Shown here: piece by piece, positions 9,382 through 16,613 of the stretch
Numbering within the stretch: the first letter of the stretch is position 1
Layout of the letters: each line of letters starts with the position of its first letter
Source: Dehalococcoides mccartyi 195
GTDB lineage: Bacteria > Chloroflexota > Dehalococcoidia > Dehalococcoidales > Dehalococcoidaceae
NCBI RefSeq assembly: GCF_000011905.1
Contig: NC_002936.3
Coordinates: 620,001 to 684,000 of the forward strand
DNA length: 64,000 bases
Reading direction: 5' to 3'
The notes under the pieces: model-generated
What the model was told of the DNA's origin: nothing
What the model saw: the letters and a program-made list of their open reading frames with translations, nothing else
The model's database searches: none
Position numbers and translations under genes: made by a program

Positions 9382-10010
9382 ATGATAAAACCAACCAAGC
9401 TGATTCCGCCTTTTCCCCAGATGACAATAGGGGTTATGGGTTCTGCCGGCGGGGCAATGTCTGATGAAACCAAAAAAATCTACGTTGTCTGGGTGAGTGC
9501 ATAGCCAAGCGTAAACATGTACTTATTACCGGTGCCTGTCCCGGTATGCCCCATGAAACTGTGCTGGGGGCTAAGGAAGAAGGCGGAGTAGTAGTGGGTA
9601 TTTCTCCGGCCCTCAATCTGGAAGAACACGTAGAAAAATACCATTCTCCCACCCGCGGATATGACGCCATTATCTATACCGGCTCAGGTCTGATGGGACG
9701 GGAGATTGAAAATATCCGCAGCTGTGACGTAGTTATATTTGCCGGGGGGCGCTCCGGCACTCTGGGTGAGTTTGCCATAGCTTATGACGAAGGCAAGGTT
9801 ATAGGCGTGTTGCGGGGGAGCGGCGGTATTGCTGACCATCTGGACAAGATTATTGCCATGGTGGACAAGGAAACCGGTGCCCGGGTCTACTACGAATCAG
9901 ACCCGCATAAACTGCTGGACGTACTGGAAGCAGTTTACCGGGAACGTATTTTCCCCAGGCATAAGCTTCTGCTGGAAAACCACAGCCCTGACGGTATTTA
10001 CGACGGCTAA
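9382..10010 (+). pseudogene. LOG-family (lysine-decarboxylase-like) protein gene with a frameshift
   Basis: The reading frame from the ATG at 9382 encodes GVMGSAGGAMSDETKK, the nucleotide-binding N-terminus of the LOG/TIGR00725 family, then hits TAG at about 9502. Shifting frame in the run of seven A (9472-9478) restores a continuous protein: LGECIAKRKHVLITGACPGM, then ALNLEEH, FAGGRSGTLGE and the C-terminus ending at 10010. One extra A would give a ~209-residue intact protein. Related enzymes are phosphoribohydrolases. Without recoding, only a 154-residue fragment from 9546, lacking the N-terminal glycine-rich loop, could be made. Authentic mutation, programmed slippage and sequencing error are all possible. 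Confidence 0.8.
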
Positions 10011-10055: not shown

Positions 10056-10148
10056 ATGTCCCCGGAATGCTTGGGATAGGGGGTCTGTCAAAGCAGGTTT
10101 ACGGGTCTGGTTTCCCTGAGAATATATTTCAGGTTTTTCGTTTATGTA

Positions 10149-10177
10149 TTGACTAAACAAAATAACTGGAGTAAACT
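10149..10177 (+). promoter_or_regulatory. Promoter of the btu-cbi operon
   Basis: TTGACT (10149-10154) and TAAACT (10172-10177) are 17 bases apart. Transcription would start near 10184, immediately before the first cobalamin riboswitch, leaving a leader of about 435 bases before btuF. Confidence 0.6.
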
Positions 10178-10184
10178 AAAATTT

Positions 10185-10325
10185 AGTTGAATATATGACG
10201 GGATAGCTATGAGTGCAAGACCGGTGCGAATCCGGCGCAGTACCGCCTACTGTGACCGAGGGGAGACCTTCGGGAGCCAGAACCTCAAATTCCGTTACCA
10301 GGCACTCCGCGGAATAGGGAGGGTA
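10185..10325 (+). ncRNA. Cobalamin riboswitch 1 (first of two in series)
   Basis: The leader has the conserved core GAGTGCAAGACCGGTGCGAA followed by TCCGGCGCAGTACCGCCTACTGTGACC, then GGGAGCCAGAAC and CTCCGCGG, a layout typical of cobalamin aptamers. It is followed by an intrinsic terminator at 10344-10378, suggesting control by transcription attenuation: ligand binding should favour termination. The downstream genes are corrinoid transport and remodelling genes, as expected for this class. Boundaries are approximate. Confidence 0.85.
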
Positions 10326-10343
10326 GTCATTTTAAAGTGACTG

Positions 10344-10378
10344 AAATACCTTTGTCCGATGAGGCAGAGGTATTTTTT
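10344..10378 (+). terminator. Riboswitch-1 expression-platform terminator
   Basis: An 11-base stem (10344-10354 with 10365-10375, one G-T pair) is followed by a T-run. It lies between the two cobalamin aptamers, so riboswitch 1 can stop transcription before riboswitch 2 is made. A small hairpin AGTCA/TGACT at about 10325-10342 precedes it and may be part of the antiterminator switch. Confidence 0.75.
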
Positions 10379-10419
10379 ATGTCTGGCAGAGTATATAAAA
10401 AATAACAGGGCCTTGAACT

Positions 10420-10533
10420 TTGAGTGCAAGACCGGTGCAATTCCGGCGCAGTACCGCCTGCTGTAATGGGGCAAATACCCCGAAGTCAGAACTTCAAAGT
10501 TCGGTTTTAGAGGCTCTCCGCGGTAAGAGGAGG
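10420..10533 (+). ncRNA. Cobalamin riboswitch 2 (second in series)
   Basis: A second aptamer repeats the core of the first: GAGTGCAAGACCGGTGCAAT then TCCGGCGCAGTACCGCCTGCTGTAATG, GAAGTCAGAACTT and CTCTCCGCGG. No T-run terminator follows before btuF. Instead an AGAGGAGG (10526-10533) lies at its 3' edge opposite a CTCTCC that could mask it, which suggests translational control. Aptamer arrangement is seen; mechanism is inferred. Confidence 0.85.
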
Positions 10534-10542
10534 TACGTGGCC

Positions 10543-10560
10543 ATGCAGAAAAACTTGTAA
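10543..10560 (+). CDS. Possible five-codon leader peptide before btuF
   Basis: ATG CAG AAA AAC TTG TAA would encode MQKNL. It sits nine bases after AGAGGAGG, the best Shine-Dalgarno match in the leader, while btuF itself starts 59 bases further on with its own GGAG. It could be a true leader peptide, or the purine-rich motif may only be part of riboswitch 2. Confidence 0.3.
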   Translation: MQKNL

Positions 10561-10618
10561 GAGGAAACAGTTTTGCCCGTGGTTTTGGTTTCCGATATTA
10601 AAAATGAATGGAGCAGTT

Positions 10619-11635
10619 ATGCTGAGTGATATTAAAATGAAACTTAACAGTAAGAGTGCCCGCTTGGGTACGGCTGTTGCCAGTATCTTCTTAAGTTTGG
10701 TTTTGCTGCTGGGTTTGGCAGGCGGCTGTAAAACGGCAGACGATACCGAAAATGAAGATGATACCCCGGTAGTAACCGAAGTAAGCTATCCCTTGACAGT
10801 GACAGACCAGCTGGGCAGGACGGTAACTATTCAGTCCGAACCCCAGACTATAGTCTCTCTTTCCCCCAGCAATACCGAAACTATTTATGCTATGGGACTG
10901 GAAGATAAACTGGTGGGTGTGACTACTTACTGCAACTACCCTGAGGCCGCCGCAGATAAGCCCAAGGTGGGCGGTTTTTCAACCGTAGATGTTGAAGCGG
11001 TGACTGCTATAGGACCTGATATTATTCTGGCCTCCAATCTTCATGAATCTACCGTTATCCCTCAGCTTGAACAGCTGGGTCTGACTGTGATAGCTATCAG
11101 CCCGGATAATCTGGAAGAAGTAATCTCATCTATTGAGCTTATTGGCAAATGCCTTAATCAGGTTGAAAAAGCCAATTCGCTGGTAGACGGGATGCAAACC
11201 CGTATAGATGCGGTAACAGCCAAGGTCAAAAACCTGTCTGACAGTCAGAAACCGCGTGTTTTATACATTGTCTGGCATGAACCTCTTATGAGTGTTGGTT
11301 CTACTGCCTTTATAACCGGCTTGATTACTGCTGCCGGAAGCGTTAGTATTACTGCTGATTCTGTAGAAGCTTATCCTACCATTAGTTTGGAAACAGTACT
11401 CGGGGCTAATCCCCAGGTGATAGTGGTGGGTACCGGTATGGGTTCAGGGGCGGATGCGCCGCTGATTTTTATGCAGGATGAGCCCCGTCTGGCGGCTATT
11501 GATGCCAGAATAAACGGCAATATATATAGTATCAATACAGACCTTATCGGCCGTACCGGCCCGCGGATTGTAGATGCTCTGGAGCAGCTGGCCCAGATGC
11601 TCCACCCTGAAATATTCGGGGCTTTCAGCGGATAA
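10619..11635 (+). CDS. btuF: corrinoid-binding lipoprotein of the B12 ABC transporter
   Basis: This is the extracytoplasmic solute-binding component for corrinoid import. From the ATG at 10619 (GGAG five bases upstream) it has 338 residues, with a hydrophobic signal segment at about 19-34 and the lipobox LAGGC placing the lipid-modified cysteine at residue 37. The mature part has the helical-backbone (TroA/BtuF) layout: TIVSLSPSNTETIYAMGLEDKL, VGGFSTVDVEAV and a C-terminal lobe. An ATG at 10604 lacks a ribosome site. It is controlled by two riboswitches and followed by btuC after a 138-base gap. Confidence 0.92.
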   Translation: MLSDIKMKLNSKSARLGTAVASIFLSLVLLLGLAGGCKTADDTENEDDTPVVTEVSYPLTVTDQLGRTVTIQSEPQTIVSLSPSNTETIYAMGLEDKLVGVTTYCNYPEAAADKPKVGGFSTVDVEAVTAIGPDIILASNLHESTVIPQLEQLGLTVIAISPDNLEEVISSIELIGKCLNQVEKANSLVDGMQTRIDAVTAKVKNLSDSQKPRVLYIVWHEPLMSVGSTAFITGLITAAGSVSITADSVEAYPTISLETVLGANPQVIVVGTGMGSGADAPLIFMQDEPRLAAIDARINGNIYSINTDLIGRTGPRIVDALEQLAQMLHPEIFGAFSG

Positions 11636-11773: not shown

Positions 11774-12778
11774 ATGCTCGGGTTGCTTGGATTGCTGCTG
11801 CTGGCGGCAATCTTTGCTATTTCATTCGGCTCGGTTGAAGTGCCGTTTTTTACCACTATATCCATTATAATTTCAAAAATCCCCTTTATACATATCAGCC
11901 CTGACTGGACTGTAAATACCCAGACTATTATTTGGGATATCCGTTTGCCCAGAGTCCTGCTGGCCGGAGTGGTGGGTATGGCTTTGGCTGTGGCCGGGGC
12001 TACATATCAGGGGCTTTTCTGTAACCCTCTGGCAGACCCTTATCTTATCGGTGTGGCCCAAGGGGCGGCGGTAGGCGCTGTACTGGGGCTGATACTAGGT
12101 ATCGGTTTTGATATACTGGGTATTTTCGCAACCCCGCTGTTTGCCTTTGTGGGGGCGTTCGGGGCGGTAGGTGTTGTGTATATGCTGGCCAGGGTGGGAA
12201 ACCGCCTTACGGTTACCACTTTGATACTGGCCGGTGTGGCACTGGGCTCATTCCTTACGGCTGTTGTATCGTATTTGATTACGGTCAGCGGCGACAAGAT
12301 TCACTCTGTTATGTTCTGGCTGATGGGCAGTTTTTCTATGGCTGCCTGGGACAGTGTAAAAATAGTTGTACCTATTGTAATCATAGGTACTATAGTTATA
12401 CTTTTATTTGCCCGTTCGCTGAACCTTATTCAGCTGGGTGAAGAGCAGGCTCAGGAACTGGGGGTAGATGTGGAGCGGATGAAAATCTTCCTCCTTACGG
12501 CAGCTACCCTGATAACAGCCGCAGCGGTATCTTTTGTGGGTATTATCGGTTTTGTGGGTATTATAGTTCCCCACGCCGTGAGACTAATCTGGGGGGCGGA
12601 TTACCGTTTCCTGCTGCCGCTTTCGGCTCTGGTGGGGGCGGTATTTATGATAATGGCTGACATTGCCTCCCGTACGTTGGTTGCTCCCAATGAAATCCCG
12701 GTGGGGGCTATTACGGCACTGGTGGGTGCGCCCTTTTTCCTGTATTTGCTTAGAAAACGCACCCGAATGCTCTTTTAG
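11774..12778 (+). CDS. btuC: corrinoid ABC transporter permease
   Basis: The 334-residue membrane protein is of the FecCD/BtuC family and would form the transport channel as a dimer with BtuD. About ten hydrophobic segments are visible, the first at residues 2-19. Family motifs include LPRVLLAGVVGMALAVAGAT with CNPLADPYLIGVAQGAAVGA after it, and GFVGIIVPHAVRL near the C-terminus. The ATG at 11774 has only a weak GGCAGG upstream. In the same frame an amber TAG (11753-11755) separates it from an ATG at 11687 with a better ribosome site, so the ancestral N-terminus may have been 29 codons longer. Confidence 0.88.
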   Translation: MLGLLGLLLLAAIFAISFGSVEVPFFTTISIIISKIPFIHISPDWTVNTQTIIWDIRLPRVLLAGVVGMALAVAGATYQGLFCNPLADPYLIGVAQGAAVGAVLGLILGIGFDILGIFATPLFAFVGAFGAVGVVYMLARVGNRLTVTTLILAGVALGSFLTAVVSYLITVSGDKIHSVMFWLMGSFSMAAWDSVKIVVPIVIIGTIVILLFARSLNLIQLGEEQAQELGVDVERMKIFLLTAATLITAAAVSFVGIIGFVGIIVPHAVRLIWGADYRFLLPLSALVGAVFMIMADIASRTLVAPNEIPVGAITALVGAPFFLYLLRKRTRMLF

Positions 12779-12789
12779 GTATATGAAAA

Positions 12790-13614
12790 ATGTTTGAACT
12801 TGAAGTCCGGGATATAACCCTGGCCTATGGTGCGGTTGATGTTTTGAGGAATGTCAGCTTTAAAACCATGCCCGGTGAAATGATAGGCTTGGTAGGGCTG
12901 AATGGTTCAGGCAAGTCTACCCTGATAAAATCTTTGGCCAGAGTTATAGAGCCGCGTCTGGGGCATATTTACATAAACGGGCGTGATTCGCGTACTATTC
13001 CCCGCCTGGAGCTGGCTAAGATGGTAGGGGTTGTGCCTCAGATACCGGTACTTCCCAGCGCTTTTACCGCTTTTGAGATTGTCCTGATGGGCCGAAACCC
13101 TCATATGGGAACGTTTCAATATGAAAGCCGCAAGGATATTGCCATTGCCTGGGAGGCGATGGAGAGGGCAGGGGTACTGCATCTGGCTGAAAGACAAATA
13201 GGCGAACTTTCGGGTGGTGAAATACAAAGTGTAGTCATTGCCCGTTCGTTATGCCAGAAAACCGAGGCTATTTTGCTGGATGAGCCTACTTCCAATCTGG
13301 ATATAGGCCGCCAGATAGAGGTACTTGACCTTATAAAATCAGAGTGCCGCGAACGGAATATTACCGTAATTGCCGCCCTGCACGACCTTAATCTGGCTGC
13401 CCACTATTGTGAAAGGCTGATACTTATTGATCACAACGGCATTCATGCAGACGGCAGTCCGGCCGAGGTAATAACCACTGAAAATATCAGCCGTGTTTAC
13501 GGCCCCGGCAGTTATGTCCATACTCATCCCCTAAGCGGACTTCCGGCGGTACTGCCGCGTTTAGGTAATACCCGCTGTGCAAACGGCGAAAAGGGAGGCA
13601 CGGGTGCCCGCTGA
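12790..13614 (+). CDS. btuD: corrinoid ABC transporter ATP-binding protein
   Basis: The ATPase powers BtuC. The 274 residues include Walker A GLNGSGKS (36-43), a Q-loop near VVPQIPVLP (81-89), the ABC signature LSGGE (140-144), Walker B ILLDEP (161-166) and the switch histidine in ALHD (about 198). It starts 11 bases after btuC and overlaps the start of cbiZ by 11 bases, so uptake and remodelling genes are tightly coupled. Confidence 0.95.
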   Translation: MFELEVRDITLAYGAVDVLRNVSFKTMPGEMIGLVGLNGSGKSTLIKSLARVIEPRLGHIYINGRDSRTIPRLELAKMVGVVPQIPVLPSAFTAFEIVLMGRNPHMGTFQYESRKDIAIAWEAMERAGVLHLAERQIGELSGGEIQSVVIARSLCQKTEAILLDEPTSNLDIGRQIEVLDLIKSECRERNITVIAALHDLNLAAHYCERLILIDHNGIHADGSPAEVITTENISRVYGPGSYVHTHPLSGLPAVLPRLGNTRCANGEKGGTGAR

Positions 13615-14374
13615 GAAGGTAAATATCCGGACAGTTGCCGAATTTCACGGCATAAAGGCCGAGGTTATTGAGCATGAGGTCTGGGGTGTTCCCGCCAATG
13701 CTTTAGTGGTTACTTTTCCCGAAGAACGGCGGGCACTTTCCGGCAGGCAGGGTTACCGCAAGGTCAAGGCAGTCTGCAATATTTATCTGCCGGATGCTAT
13801 CTGGCCGCGTCTGCATAATGATAAATTAAGCTGGAATGGCTATTACCGTCAGGTTTTTTCCAAAGCCCTGAGTGCTATCGGCATTCCCCTTTCCAAAGTG
13901 CTGGTTTTATCCACCGGGGTTACCATGGACCATCTGGCCTTCCATGAAGAAAAACAGGGTGATTTATGGGTGGTGGTTCTGGCTACCGCCGGGGTGGAGT
14001 CTAATGCCTTACGCATTGGGCAGGATAAGTCTTCGGGTATTGACCGTAACGGCAAGTTCAAACCCTTCGGCACTATAAATACTATTATTCTTACCAGTGA
14101 AAGCCTGCCGCAGTCTGCTCTGGCTTCCTGTTTTATAACCGCTACTGAGGCGAAGACTATCGCTTTGGATGAACTGGGTGTCATGAGTGCTTATACCCCC
14201 GGCCTAAAAGCCAGCGGCACCGGCACTGACCAGATAGTGGCAGTTTCCGGCACAGGTGACAAGGCAACCTACGTGGGCGGGCATACTTTGCTGGGTGAAC
14301 TGATGGGGCGGAGTGTTACCCTGGCTATAAAAGAAGCCCTGACCAAGCGTATGGCCAGCAGAAAAGGGCATTAG
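13604..14374 (+). CDS. cbiZ: adenosylcobinamide amidohydrolase
   Basis: CbiZ cleaves the aminopropanol linkage of adenosylcobinamide to give adenosylcobyric acid, letting a cell strip the lower ligand arm from imported corrinoids. The 256-residue protein has the family blocks VLSTGVTMDHLAF, WVVVLATAGVESNALRIG and the C-terminal SGTGDKATYVGGHTLLGELM. The GTG at 13604 follows GGGAGG and overlaps the btuD stop. A start further upstream would lie inside btuD without a ribosome site. It is followed at once by cbiB, which rebuilds the product. Confidence 0.9.
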   Translation: MPAEKVNIRTVAEFHGIKAEVIEHEVWGVPANALVVTFPEERRALSGRQGYRKVKAVCNIYLPDAIWPRLHNDKLSWNGYYRQVFSKALSAIGIPLSKVLVLSTGVTMDHLAFHEEKQGDLWVVVLATAGVESNALRIGQDKSSGIDRNGKFKPFGTINTIILTSESLPQSALASCFITATEAKTIALDELGVMSAYTPGLKASGTGTDQIVAVSGTGDKATYVGGHTLLGELMGRSVTLAIKEALTKRMASRKGH

Positions 14375-14375
14375 G

Positions 14376-15302
14376 TTGGAAGTCCTTTTTATATTCCTGC
14401 TGGCGCTCATTATTGATTTGGTTTTTGGAGACCCGCCTAATGCTTTTCATCCGGTAGCCTATATGGGCAGGGTAATTGCCCTTTTTGAGCGGGCAGGGTT
14501 TAAGGGCGGTAGGGTCTACCAGTTTGTTTACGGTATAGTCATGGTTTTTATTGCCATGGCACTTTTTTTTATACCGGTATATTTTCTGCTGGACTGGCTG
14601 CATGGAGTAAACAGTGTAGTTTACATAATAGTGTCGGCCGTTTTACTCAAGATGTGTTTTACGGTAACCGGCTTGCGTAAGGCCGCTTTGCTGATTAAAC
14701 AATTGTTAGAAAAAGATGACATTGCCCAGGCCCGTTTTGAGCTCCGCTCACTGGTTTCACGTGATACCTCCAAACTGCCTCAGCCCAAACTGGTGGCGGC
14801 GGCGGTGGAATCTGTGGCGGAGAGTATCGGAGACGGGTTTGTGGCGCCGCTCTTTTTCTTTCTGATATTCGGCGTGCCCGGTGTTATGGCCTACCGGGTA
14901 GTTAGCACCTTTGACAGCATGGTGGGTTACCGCGGCAAATACGAATATCTGGGCAAGTTTGCCGCCAGATTTGATGATGTGCTTAATTTTATTCCGGCCA
15001 GACTGTCTGCCTTGTGCATACTGATTGCCAGCTTATTTGGGCGTTACAGCCCGGCAGGGGCATGGCGGATAATGTGGCGTGACCACGCCAAGACCCAAAG
15101 CCCCAATGCCGGCTGGCCAATGGCGACTGCGGCCGGTGCCCTTGAAGTTTGTCTGGAAAAAGTGGGACACTACTCACTGGGGGATAATATCAGGGAGCTT
15201 GTTCCCCAAACTATCAGCCGTTCGCTGCTGCTTATAAACAGTGCGGCCTTTATCTGGGTTTTAATAAGCGCGGGAGTGATTTATTTTGTCCGTATCGCCT
15301 AA
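14376..15302 (+). CDS. cbiB: adenosylcobinamide-phosphate synthase
   Basis: This integral membrane enzyme attaches aminopropanol phosphate to adenosylcobyric acid. The 308-residue sequence has the typical start LIIDLVFGDPPNAFHPVAYMG, several hydrophobic segments, and the conserved blocks LVSRDTSKL and YRVVSTFDSMVGYR. The start is TTG one base after the cbiZ stop. It overlaps cobD by 17 bases. CbiB regenerates what CbiZ cleaved, which fits corrinoid remodelling. Confidence 0.93.
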   Translation: MEVLFIFLLALIIDLVFGDPPNAFHPVAYMGRVIALFERAGFKGGRVYQFVYGIVMVFIAMALFFIPVYFLLDWLHGVNSVVYIIVSAVLLKMCFTVTGLRKAALLIKQLLEKDDIAQARFELRSLVSRDTSKLPQPKLVAAAVESVAESIGDGFVAPLFFFLIFGVPGVMAYRVVSTFDSMVGYRGKYEYLGKFAARFDDVLNFIPARLSALCILIASLFGRYSPAGAWRIMWRDHAKTQSPNAGWPMATAAGALEVCLEKVGHYSLGDNIRELVPQTISRSLLLINSAAFIWVLISAGVIYFVRIA

Positions 15303-16392
15303 GCCGCAGGTAGAAAAATTAAAGCCGTGTTACCACGGCGGGCCGAACTATGCCGAGCTTAGAAAACTGGGTATCAGCCCGGATGCGGTTATGGATTTTT
15401 CGGTAAGCTCAAATCCCTATCCGGCACCTGTTGAGCTCAAAAACGCCCTTTGCTCTTTGGTTATTGACCGCTACCCTGATTCAGATTCTGCCGAACTAAA
15501 AGAATACCTGGCAGGCAGGCTTTCACTTAAGCCCGAAAACCTGATTATGGGCAACGGCTCTATGGAAATTATCCGTCTGGTTGCCGGGGCATATTTCGGG
15601 GTGGGGGATACGGTTTTAATACTCAAACCCACCTTCGGGGAATATGAACTGGCAGCAGAAGTGGCCGGTGCGGATATAATTGAGCAGTGGGCAGACGAAG
15701 AGAGCGGCTTTAAGTTTGATTTGGATTTAACCTGCCGCATTATTAAAAAACACCAGCCCAAAGCGGTATTTATCTGCAATCCCAATAACCCTACCGGGGT
15801 TTATCTTTCCAAAGCGGATATTGAAAAAGTGCTGAGCGTCTGCACTGATACCCTGCTGGTGCTGGACGAAGCTTATATAGCCTTTGCTGAAGGCGGCTGG
15901 AAATCAACAGATTTGCTCGAAACGGGCAATATTATAGTTATCCGCTCTATGACCAAAGATTGCGCTTTGGCCGGGCTGAGGCTTGGTTATGGCATGGCTT
16001 CGGCGGAGATAATAACCAACCTCAAAAAGGTCTGTCCGCCGTGGAATGTTAATTCTGCCGCCCAGAAAGCCGGGCTTGTTTGCCTGTGTCACCCCAGCTA
16101 TCTGGCGGAATCTGAGAAAAAGATAAAGGCCTCTAAGGAGTATCTCAGGCAGGGTTTTGCAGGCTTGGGCTTTAGAGTGCTGCCCTCCGAGACCAATTTT
16201 TTCCTGCTGAAAGTGAAAAAGGCCGCGGATTTCCGTTCGGCACTCCTTAAGCACGGGCTTATGGTGCGGGACTGCACTTCATTCGGCTTGCCACAGTATG
16301 TCCGTATTGCTCCCCGCACCCAAAGTGAGTGTGAACGCCTGCTTGCGGTTGCGGCTGAATTGAAAAGTAAGTCTGAGATTTATCCAGCCTGA
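15286..16392 (+). CDS. cobD: threonine-phosphate decarboxylase-like (HisC/CobD family) PLP enzyme
   Basis: The enzyme should supply (R)-1-amino-2-propanol phosphate to CbiB by decarboxylating threonine phosphate. The 368 residues show the fold type I hallmarks: NPNNPTG (165-171), DEAY (194-197), the PLP-binding lysine in SMTKD (Lys224) and LRLGYG just after. Histidinol-phosphate aminotransferase is a close relative; the B12 operon position favours CobD. The start is TTG, overlapping cbiB. It ends the first B12 operon; a new promoter and riboswitch follow. Confidence 0.88.
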   Translation: MSVSPKPQVEKLKPCYHGGPNYAELRKLGISPDAVMDFSVSSNPYPAPVELKNALCSLVIDRYPDSDSAELKEYLAGRLSLKPENLIMGNGSMEIIRLVAGAYFGVGDTVLILKPTFGEYELAAEVAGADIIEQWADEESGFKFDLDLTCRIIKKHQPKAVFICNPNNPTGVYLSKADIEKVLSVCTDTLLVLDEAYIAFAEGGWKSTDLLETGNIIVIRSMTKDCALAGLRLGYGMASAEIITNLKKVCPPWNVNSAAQKAGLVCLCHPSYLAESEKKIKASKEYLRQGFAGLGFRVLPSETNFFLLKVKKAADFRSALLKHGLMVRDCTSFGLPQYVRIAPRTQSECERLLAVAAELKSKSEIYPA

Positions 16393-16421
16393 TTGACTGA
16401 CAGGGTTTTGTCTGATATAGT
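16393..16421 (+). promoter_or_regulatory. Promoter of the cobTSCU operon
   Basis: TTGACT (16393-16398) and TATAGT (16416-16421) are 17 bases apart, starting right after the cobD stop and ahead of the third riboswitch. Confidence 0.65.
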
Positions 16422-16427
16422 TTTTAA

Positions 16428-16592
16428 TGGTGATTAGCAAACGGAACACGGTTTGAATCCGTGGCGGTCCCGCCGCTGTAACCGGGGACTTTGGTTTCTT
16501 AAAGCACTTTTTGTGCGGCCACTGTCAGGGCAGTACCCTGATGGGAAGGGCGGAACCGGGGGATAATCCGGAAGCCAGAAGACGTGTTAACA
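16428..16592 (+). ncRNA. Cobalamin riboswitch 3, upstream of cobT
   Basis: The leader has AAACGGAACACGGTTTGAAT followed by CCGTGGCGGTCCCGCCGCTGTAACCGGGG and the B12-box-like GGAAGCCAGAAGAC. A large extra stem (about 16500-16550) lies in the peripheral region. This aptamer is of a more classical type than the two upstream of btuF. It is followed by a terminator at 16614-16665, so control is probably by transcription termination. The start codon of cobT lies about 95 bases beyond the terminator. Confidence 0.88.
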
Positions 16593-16613
16593 CCAAACCG
16601 GATACCTGATGGT

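Follow-up and report, generated by a model that had tools for sequence, protein, structure and literature searches.

Two class-II-type cobalamin riboswitches in series upstream of btuF in Dehalococcoides mccartyi 195, the second probably acting through a five-codon open reading frame

Analysing a 64,000-nucleotide stretch of the Dehalococcoides mccartyi 195 genome (hereafter the window; contig NC_002936.3, positions 620,001 to 684,000), we found in the leader of btuF two aptamers in series, an intrinsic terminator after the first, a Shine-Dalgarno sequence (SD) lying within P13 of the second and, downstream of it, a five-codon mini-ORF of a kind that occurs in excess across the class Dehalococcoidia. 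Taken as a whole, the arrangement is likely explained by two OFF-type elements, the first working by attenuation and the second through a ribosome on the mini-ORF. Because this layout recurs in related genomes, the switch may well include the ribosome as one of its working parts.

Corrinoids are essential cofactors of the reductive dehalogenases with which Dehalococcoides cleans up chlorinated solvents, and since these bacteria must scavenge them, the control of corrinoid uptake is central to their physiology. The leader studied here opens a vitamin B12 uptake operon (Table 1), with cobT and cobS assigned by Pfam downstream of the aminotransferase gene, in a genome made of a single contig of 1,469,720 bases. 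The probable promoter matches 9 of 12 positions in a pattern scan and its block is kept in the three Dehalococcoides species, among which the sequence upstream of it diverges. Promoter-like sites on the forward strand are located only upstream of element 1, the same scan finding none on that strand between the two elements; the aptamers lie in one leader with no intervening gene and, as read from the promoter pattern, on a shared transcript. An alternative btuF ATG, at 10604, has no SD. Before the promoter, a terminator-like hairpin with a T tail (10115-10133) probably ends the upstream gene (ORF 9546-10010). The only nearby match at the Rfam gathering score was an RF00174 cobalamin riboswitch of the classical kind (window 16414-16605, 74.8 bits); it precedes cobT within this gene cluster and brings the cluster's cobalamin elements to three in all. 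The btuF leader and its operon are present twice in the genome, the copies being 31,011 bases apart, and the upstream copy of the leader (G000:C1:599129-599629) is identical over 501 bases to that of the window (630140-630640). A tandem leader in two copies was also observed in a Dehalogenimonas-like genome (G010, C1, 838663-839013 and 867987-868337), 29 kb apart.

Table 1. Features of the btuF leader and operon, in window coordinates.
Feature	Position	Strand	Evidence
Probable promoter: -35 TTGACT 10149-10154, -10 TAAACT 10172-10177 (or TAAAAT 10177-10182)	10149-10182	+	
Element 1: putative cobalamin riboswitch aptamer of class-II type, P13 present	10196-10324	+	R1; RF01482 sub-threshold
Element 1 P5/L5; L5 CCGC complementary to L13 GCGG (kissing loop)	10238-10252	+	
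Element 1 P13 (CUCC/GGAG), L13 GCGG 10309-10312	10305-10321	+	
Predicted antiterminator of element 1	10310-10358	+	minimum-energy fold
Element 1 intrinsic terminator	10343-10378	+	pattern; conserved
Element 2: putative cobalamin riboswitch aptamer of class-II type, P13 present	10407-10535	+	R1; RF01482 sub-threshold
Element 2 P5/L5	10449-10463	+	
Element 2 P13: CUCC 10516-10519/GGAG 10529-10532; L13 GCGG 10520-10523	10516-10532	+	
Shine-Dalgarno AGAGGAGG within element 2 P13 3' arm	10526-10533	+	
Mini-ORF ATG CAG AAA AAC TTG TAA (MQKNL, stop), five codons	10543-10560	+	
SD of btuF itself (GGAG 10610-10613), with ATG 10619 as the likely start	10610-10621	+	
btuF, periplasmic corrinoid-binding protein	10619-11635	+	PF01497, E 4.7e-36
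Operon remainder: btuC, btuD, cbiZ, cbiB, aminotransferase	11774-16392	+	Pfam

The initial annotation had described two cobalamin riboswitch cores before btuF, 230 bases apart; both cores are indeed present, and the distance between them, taken from P5/L5 to P5/L5, is 211 nt. In the covariance search proposed with it, targeted scanning with RF01482 (AdoCbl, clan CL00101) returned full-length matches for element 1 (10185-10332, 35.3 bits, E 1e-4) and element 2 (10397-10537, 46.5 bits, E 2.5e-7), both under the curated gathering score of 50 bits, and neither element was called by an Rfam scan at gathering scores, exposing a gap where the RF01482 cut-off misses both btuF-leader elements. Sub-threshold matches to PyrR (RF00515) and a snoRNA in the targeted scan were taken as chance. 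A covariance model of the lineage, R1, was built on an alignment of 31 related Dehalococcoidia sequences, both btuF-leader elements among them, on which P4, P5, P6, P13 and one P3 pair were named. R1 scores element 1 at 110.2 bits (E 7e-23) and element 2 at 109.6 bits (E 1e-22), matches that arise by construction, both elements being in the training set. Within the alignment, standard pairs occupy 96.9% of the pair cells versus 87.4% in shuffles, 70 cells are changed on both sides versus 19.4 in shuffles, and pairing drops to 35-48% once the structure is slid by 1-3 columns. Changes on both sides affect every pair of P6; the L5-L13 kissing pairs (CCGC/GCGG) are invariant in 31/31 sequences and hence without covariation support.

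Both elements display the features of class II in the broad sense, with a P3-P6 core, a B12-box-like J6/3, P13 and L5-L13 kissing-loop complementarity, and no P7-P11 domain, the P8-P11 insert being absent from the sequence of both. Judged by these sequence features, they are class-II-type cobalamin riboswitches, which presumably bind corrinoids. With R1, members of the family were recovered from 140 of 294 Dehalococcoidia genomes and from 93 of the 156 genomes of the order, and a search for the exact subclass pattern across the genomes of ~85,000 species gave 101 loci, the 80 listed all belonging to Dehalococcoidia or unclassified Chloroflexota. Elsewhere in the strain 195 genome, R1 gives about 47 bits to two weaker, divergent elements of cobalamin-like type, at G000:C1:300623-300749 (+) and 1066461-1066587 (-) (L004 and L014), and the reading frame 3' of them resembles by eye the cbiZ of the window.

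The terminator hairpin of element 1 (10343-10376), already recognised in the initial annotation, consists of 14 pairs followed by a U-rich tail and is kept in two sister species. Judged by structure, the first aptamer would control an intrinsic terminator. The predicted antiterminator joins CGGA 10310-10313 to UCCG 10355-10358 and AGGG 10316-10319 to CCUU 10349-10352, enclosing an apical hairpin (10326-10341), and step-wise folding from P13 passes from P13 to the antiterminator (ends 10358-10367) and on to the terminator (from 10370). Because this fold follows the antiterminator scheme that compensatory mutations proved for P. megaterium metE (PMC10653944), element 1 is most simply read as an ordinary OFF-type transcriptional corrinoid riboswitch. 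By analogy with metE, in which P13 owes its stability to the L5-L13 kissing loop and pairs through its 3' side with the 5' side of the terminator, corrinoid would stabilise P13 through the kissing loop and let the terminator form; without corrinoid, L13 and the P13 3' arm would pair with the terminator 5' arm, and RNA polymerase would read on. The kissing-loop control of P13, the OFF direction and the antiterminator would thus follow from established work on relatives. The metE system differs in being a single corrinoid riboswitch, placed in tandem with a SAM riboswitch, and no mini-ORF is reported in the portion of the study cited here. A conserved ORF after element 1 was ruled out, the frames differing among the three species; because a hairpin of the GUCAUUUU/AAAGUGAC type is conserved there instead, an RNA-only antiterminator was attributed to element 1.

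As first proposed, the expression platforms of the two elements differ, the first being apparently transcriptional and the second having a maskable SD and no terminator. The CUCC arm of element 2 can pair with the GGAG inside AGAGGAGG, and a pattern scan found no terminator-like site after this element; a weak hairpin with GTTTTGGTTT, missed by the scan, is found in strain 195 only and was rejected as a non-conserved candidate. The masked SD had been taken, by implication, for that of btuF. It is followed at 9 nt by the ATG of the MQKNL mini-ORF, for which an in-frame GTG at 10537 is a possible alternative start, and btuF has its own SD and ATG 58 nt past the mini-ORF stop. From the sequence, the SD that element 2 can mask is that of the mini-ORF, not of btuF. 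MQKNL is the same in both sister species (G001 and G002), with synonymous changes only and an SD spacing of 7 nt, and the distance from its stop to btuF is exactly 58 nt in all three Dehalococcoides species, through a sequence that is variable. The upstream ORF starts downstream of the putatively gated SD, and its stop does not overlap the main start as in coupled ORFs. Fusion of the mini-ORF to btuF by frameshift or readthrough was discarded, the +1 frame being open in strain 195 and stopped, by eye, in G002. With corrinoid, P13 of element 2 would mask AGAGGAGG; without it, a ribosome would load there and translate MQKNL, a step that would be necessary for the response.

Across Dehalococcoidia, 179 elements were collected, and for 150 of them the platform was definable. 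Of these 150, 61 carry an ATG mini-ORF, against 14.7 expected from 200 dinucleotide shuffles of the spacer (sd 3.6, maximum 26), and 35 carry one of five codons, against 1.9 (maximum 6). Taking one element per cluster, the counts are 30.8/84 versus 3.0 at 85% identity and 16.4/41 versus 1.3 at 80%. ATG triplets peak sharply at 6-8 nt downstream of the SD core, with 62 counts there and about 2 per position elsewhere. In 73 elements an ATG falls 4-10 nt from the core, and 59 of these have an in-frame stop within six codons, versus 14 and 32 for the other frames. These mini-ORFs of two to six codons lie between P13 and the terminator, the ATG being at a median of 22 nt from the terminator C-run and the stop mostly 3-11 nt ahead of it, and they encode unrelated peptides such as MTRAP, MSGSP, MFRGT and MLK (elements L020, L021, L028, L038, L040, L045, L064, L085, L089, L109, L120, L123 and others). 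Mini-ORF codons differ across the class by 110 synonymous and 494 non-synonymous changes, versus 65/522 and 76/491 in control frames, leaving a class-wide conserved peptide unsupported; since the peptide is barely conserved, it would be the position of the ribosome, rather than the product, that matters. The mini-ORF is absent from many elements of the family. At two loci related to mini-ORF elements (L162:623 and L188:646), ATA or ACG stands at the place of the start codon with the short frame and stop kept, and could be a near-cognate start.

In relatives, the SD and mini-ORF end right at the 5' arm of the terminator, where a ribosome would act as an antiterminator; it is well documented that ribosomes keep the hairpins of intrinsic terminators from forming (PMC5021804). 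The strongest competing account, which we nevertheless consider unlikely, is that a conserved small hairpin (CAUGU...ACAUG) in the P13-terminator spacer, topping an RNA-only antiterminator, happens to create the start and stop codons and that no translation takes place. A 5-bp spacer hairpin is present in 21 of 59 mini-ORF elements and is kept without an ORF in G355 and in element 1 of G035, and antiterminator complementarity is retained by G-run elements with a mini-ORF (median z -1.87) as well as by mini-ORF-less elements (z -1.40). However, when only hairpin-free spacers are counted, mini-ORFs are still found in 38 of 104 elements versus 3.6 in shuffles; the stop codon changes in identity (TGA 38, TAA 17, TAG 10) but not in position; and in the AGGAGG elements with both a mini-ORF and a terminator (n = 18), complementarity of the L13/P13 arm to the terminator arm is at shuffle level (median z -0.05). 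Because this AGGAGG group has no obvious RNA antiterminator, a ribosome best explains antitermination there; in the G-run mini-ORF elements, the ribosome would at most assist, an RNA-only antiterminator being retained in many. We tentatively put forward, as a possibility for the class, that this class-II riboswitch acts on its target only indirectly, by controlling how ribosomes load on an ORF of two to six codons, the parked ribosome being the effector, as antiterminator beside a terminator and as relay in terminator-less second elements, with the peptide irrelevant and only position counting.

Nine mini-ORF elements have no detected terminator, and in eight of them the ORF has five codons and the main start follows 52-75 nt further on. 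Six of the eight are second elements, from D. mccartyi 195, both of its sister species, G009, G010 and G035, and two are single elements, from G004 and G008 (the ninth is L190). In this terminator-less set, the relay would have to differ from antitermination, through reinitiation or leader protection. A modelled ribosome on the mini-ORF raises the unpaired state of the btuF SD-to-ATG region from 0.37 to 0.45, an opening so slight that simple unwinding of the btuF SD gains little support from it. The mini-ORF ribosome, rather than direct unmasking of that SD, would pass the signal on, most likely by termination-reinitiation at btuF 58 nt on, a gap that is long for efficient reinitiation, or by shielding the untranslated leader from termination or degradation. 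Rho was considered as a relay: it is present in relatives, and its frame is split in strain 195. This rho locus (G000:C1:1276353-1277595, minus strand) consists of two overlapping pieces, is intact in both sister species and reflects either a real frameshift or a sequence error.

Less probable still is a plain division of labour in which transcription is stopped by element 1 and the btuF ribosome-binding region is masked directly by element 2, the mini-ORF being incidental. The SD within P13 and the absence of a terminator after element 2 would suit such a design, and SAM-II/SAM-V tandems provide a bi-mechanism precedent (PMC9481103), but the conserved SD and start of btuF lie 77 nt beyond the P13 SD, and mini-ORFs at optimal SD spacing are far above chance. 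Action of element 2 through the mini-ORF is the reading retained here.

Tandems were seen in seven genomes. On the tree, elements 1 and 2 of the Dehalogenimonas-like genomes G009 and G010 group together, as does the G355 pair, and at least three changes of the element 1/element 2 label are forced, by which a single tandem origin was rejected; from this topology, tandems appear to have arisen at least three times. Both elements of G355 are terminator-type, and the mixed design is thus not universal. Repeated tandem duplication, together with the missing terminator, could also make element 2 a decaying or decoy copy, with element 1 alone regulating. This we hold to be improbable, given that among species element 2 is conserved as well as element 1 (90-92% versus 88-91%) and keeps its L5-L13 complementarity, P13, SD and a mini-ORF with synonymous changes only. 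The two-input gate raised in the initial annotation, with the elements sensing different corrinoids, is very improbable: the aptamers are 77% identical and differ in P6, but they are of the same subclass and essentially share their core junction residues, nothing here points to different ligands, and riboswitches for corrinoids as a rule accept a broad range of ligands (PMC9600662). The series could plausibly serve to sharpen the dose response, or to regulate transcription first and a ribosome-binding step afterwards.

Known AdoCbl doublets number 26 and are pseudo-cooperative (Sudarsan 2006/Sherlock 2022, PMC9481103), the latter listing AdoCbl tandems as pseudo-cooperative only, not as bi-mechanism. 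The btuF leader shares with them two cobalamin riboswitches ahead of one transcription unit, no gene between and independent platforms, and departs from them in having two unlike platforms, of which the second would gate a mini-ORF. Its order, a transcriptional element followed by a translational one, is that of the SAM-II/SAM-V tandem, in which, however, the aptamer classes differ and the second masks the main gene's own ribosome-binding site (PMC9481103). Control of upstream ORF translation recalls the class IIb B12 riboswitch of Mycobacterium tuberculosis ppe2 (PMC11260477), where the downstream gene depends on the uORF; there, the uORF overlaps the ppe2 start (AUGA) and ppe2 has no SD, whereas the ORF before btuF has five codons and lies 58 nt away from a gene with its own SD. 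The pe20 Mbox of M. tuberculosis (PMC12810186) likewise acts through a translational platform on a small upstream ORF, but it is a Mg2+ sensor with a highly conserved uORF and demonstrated Rho-dependent termination.

AdoCbl riboswitches in tandem have been described before, as have uORFs under B12 riboswitches, and what appears new is the lineage-wide set of riboswitch-gated mini-ORFs, the open-access literature searched holding no description of two-to-six-codon ORFs gated by riboswitches on a lineage scale. If true, these elements would constitute a large natural set with a ribosome-position readout, joining riboswitch control to classical translational attenuation, and would open transcription-translation coupling in a little-studied phylum to direct tests by simple start- and stop-codon mutations.
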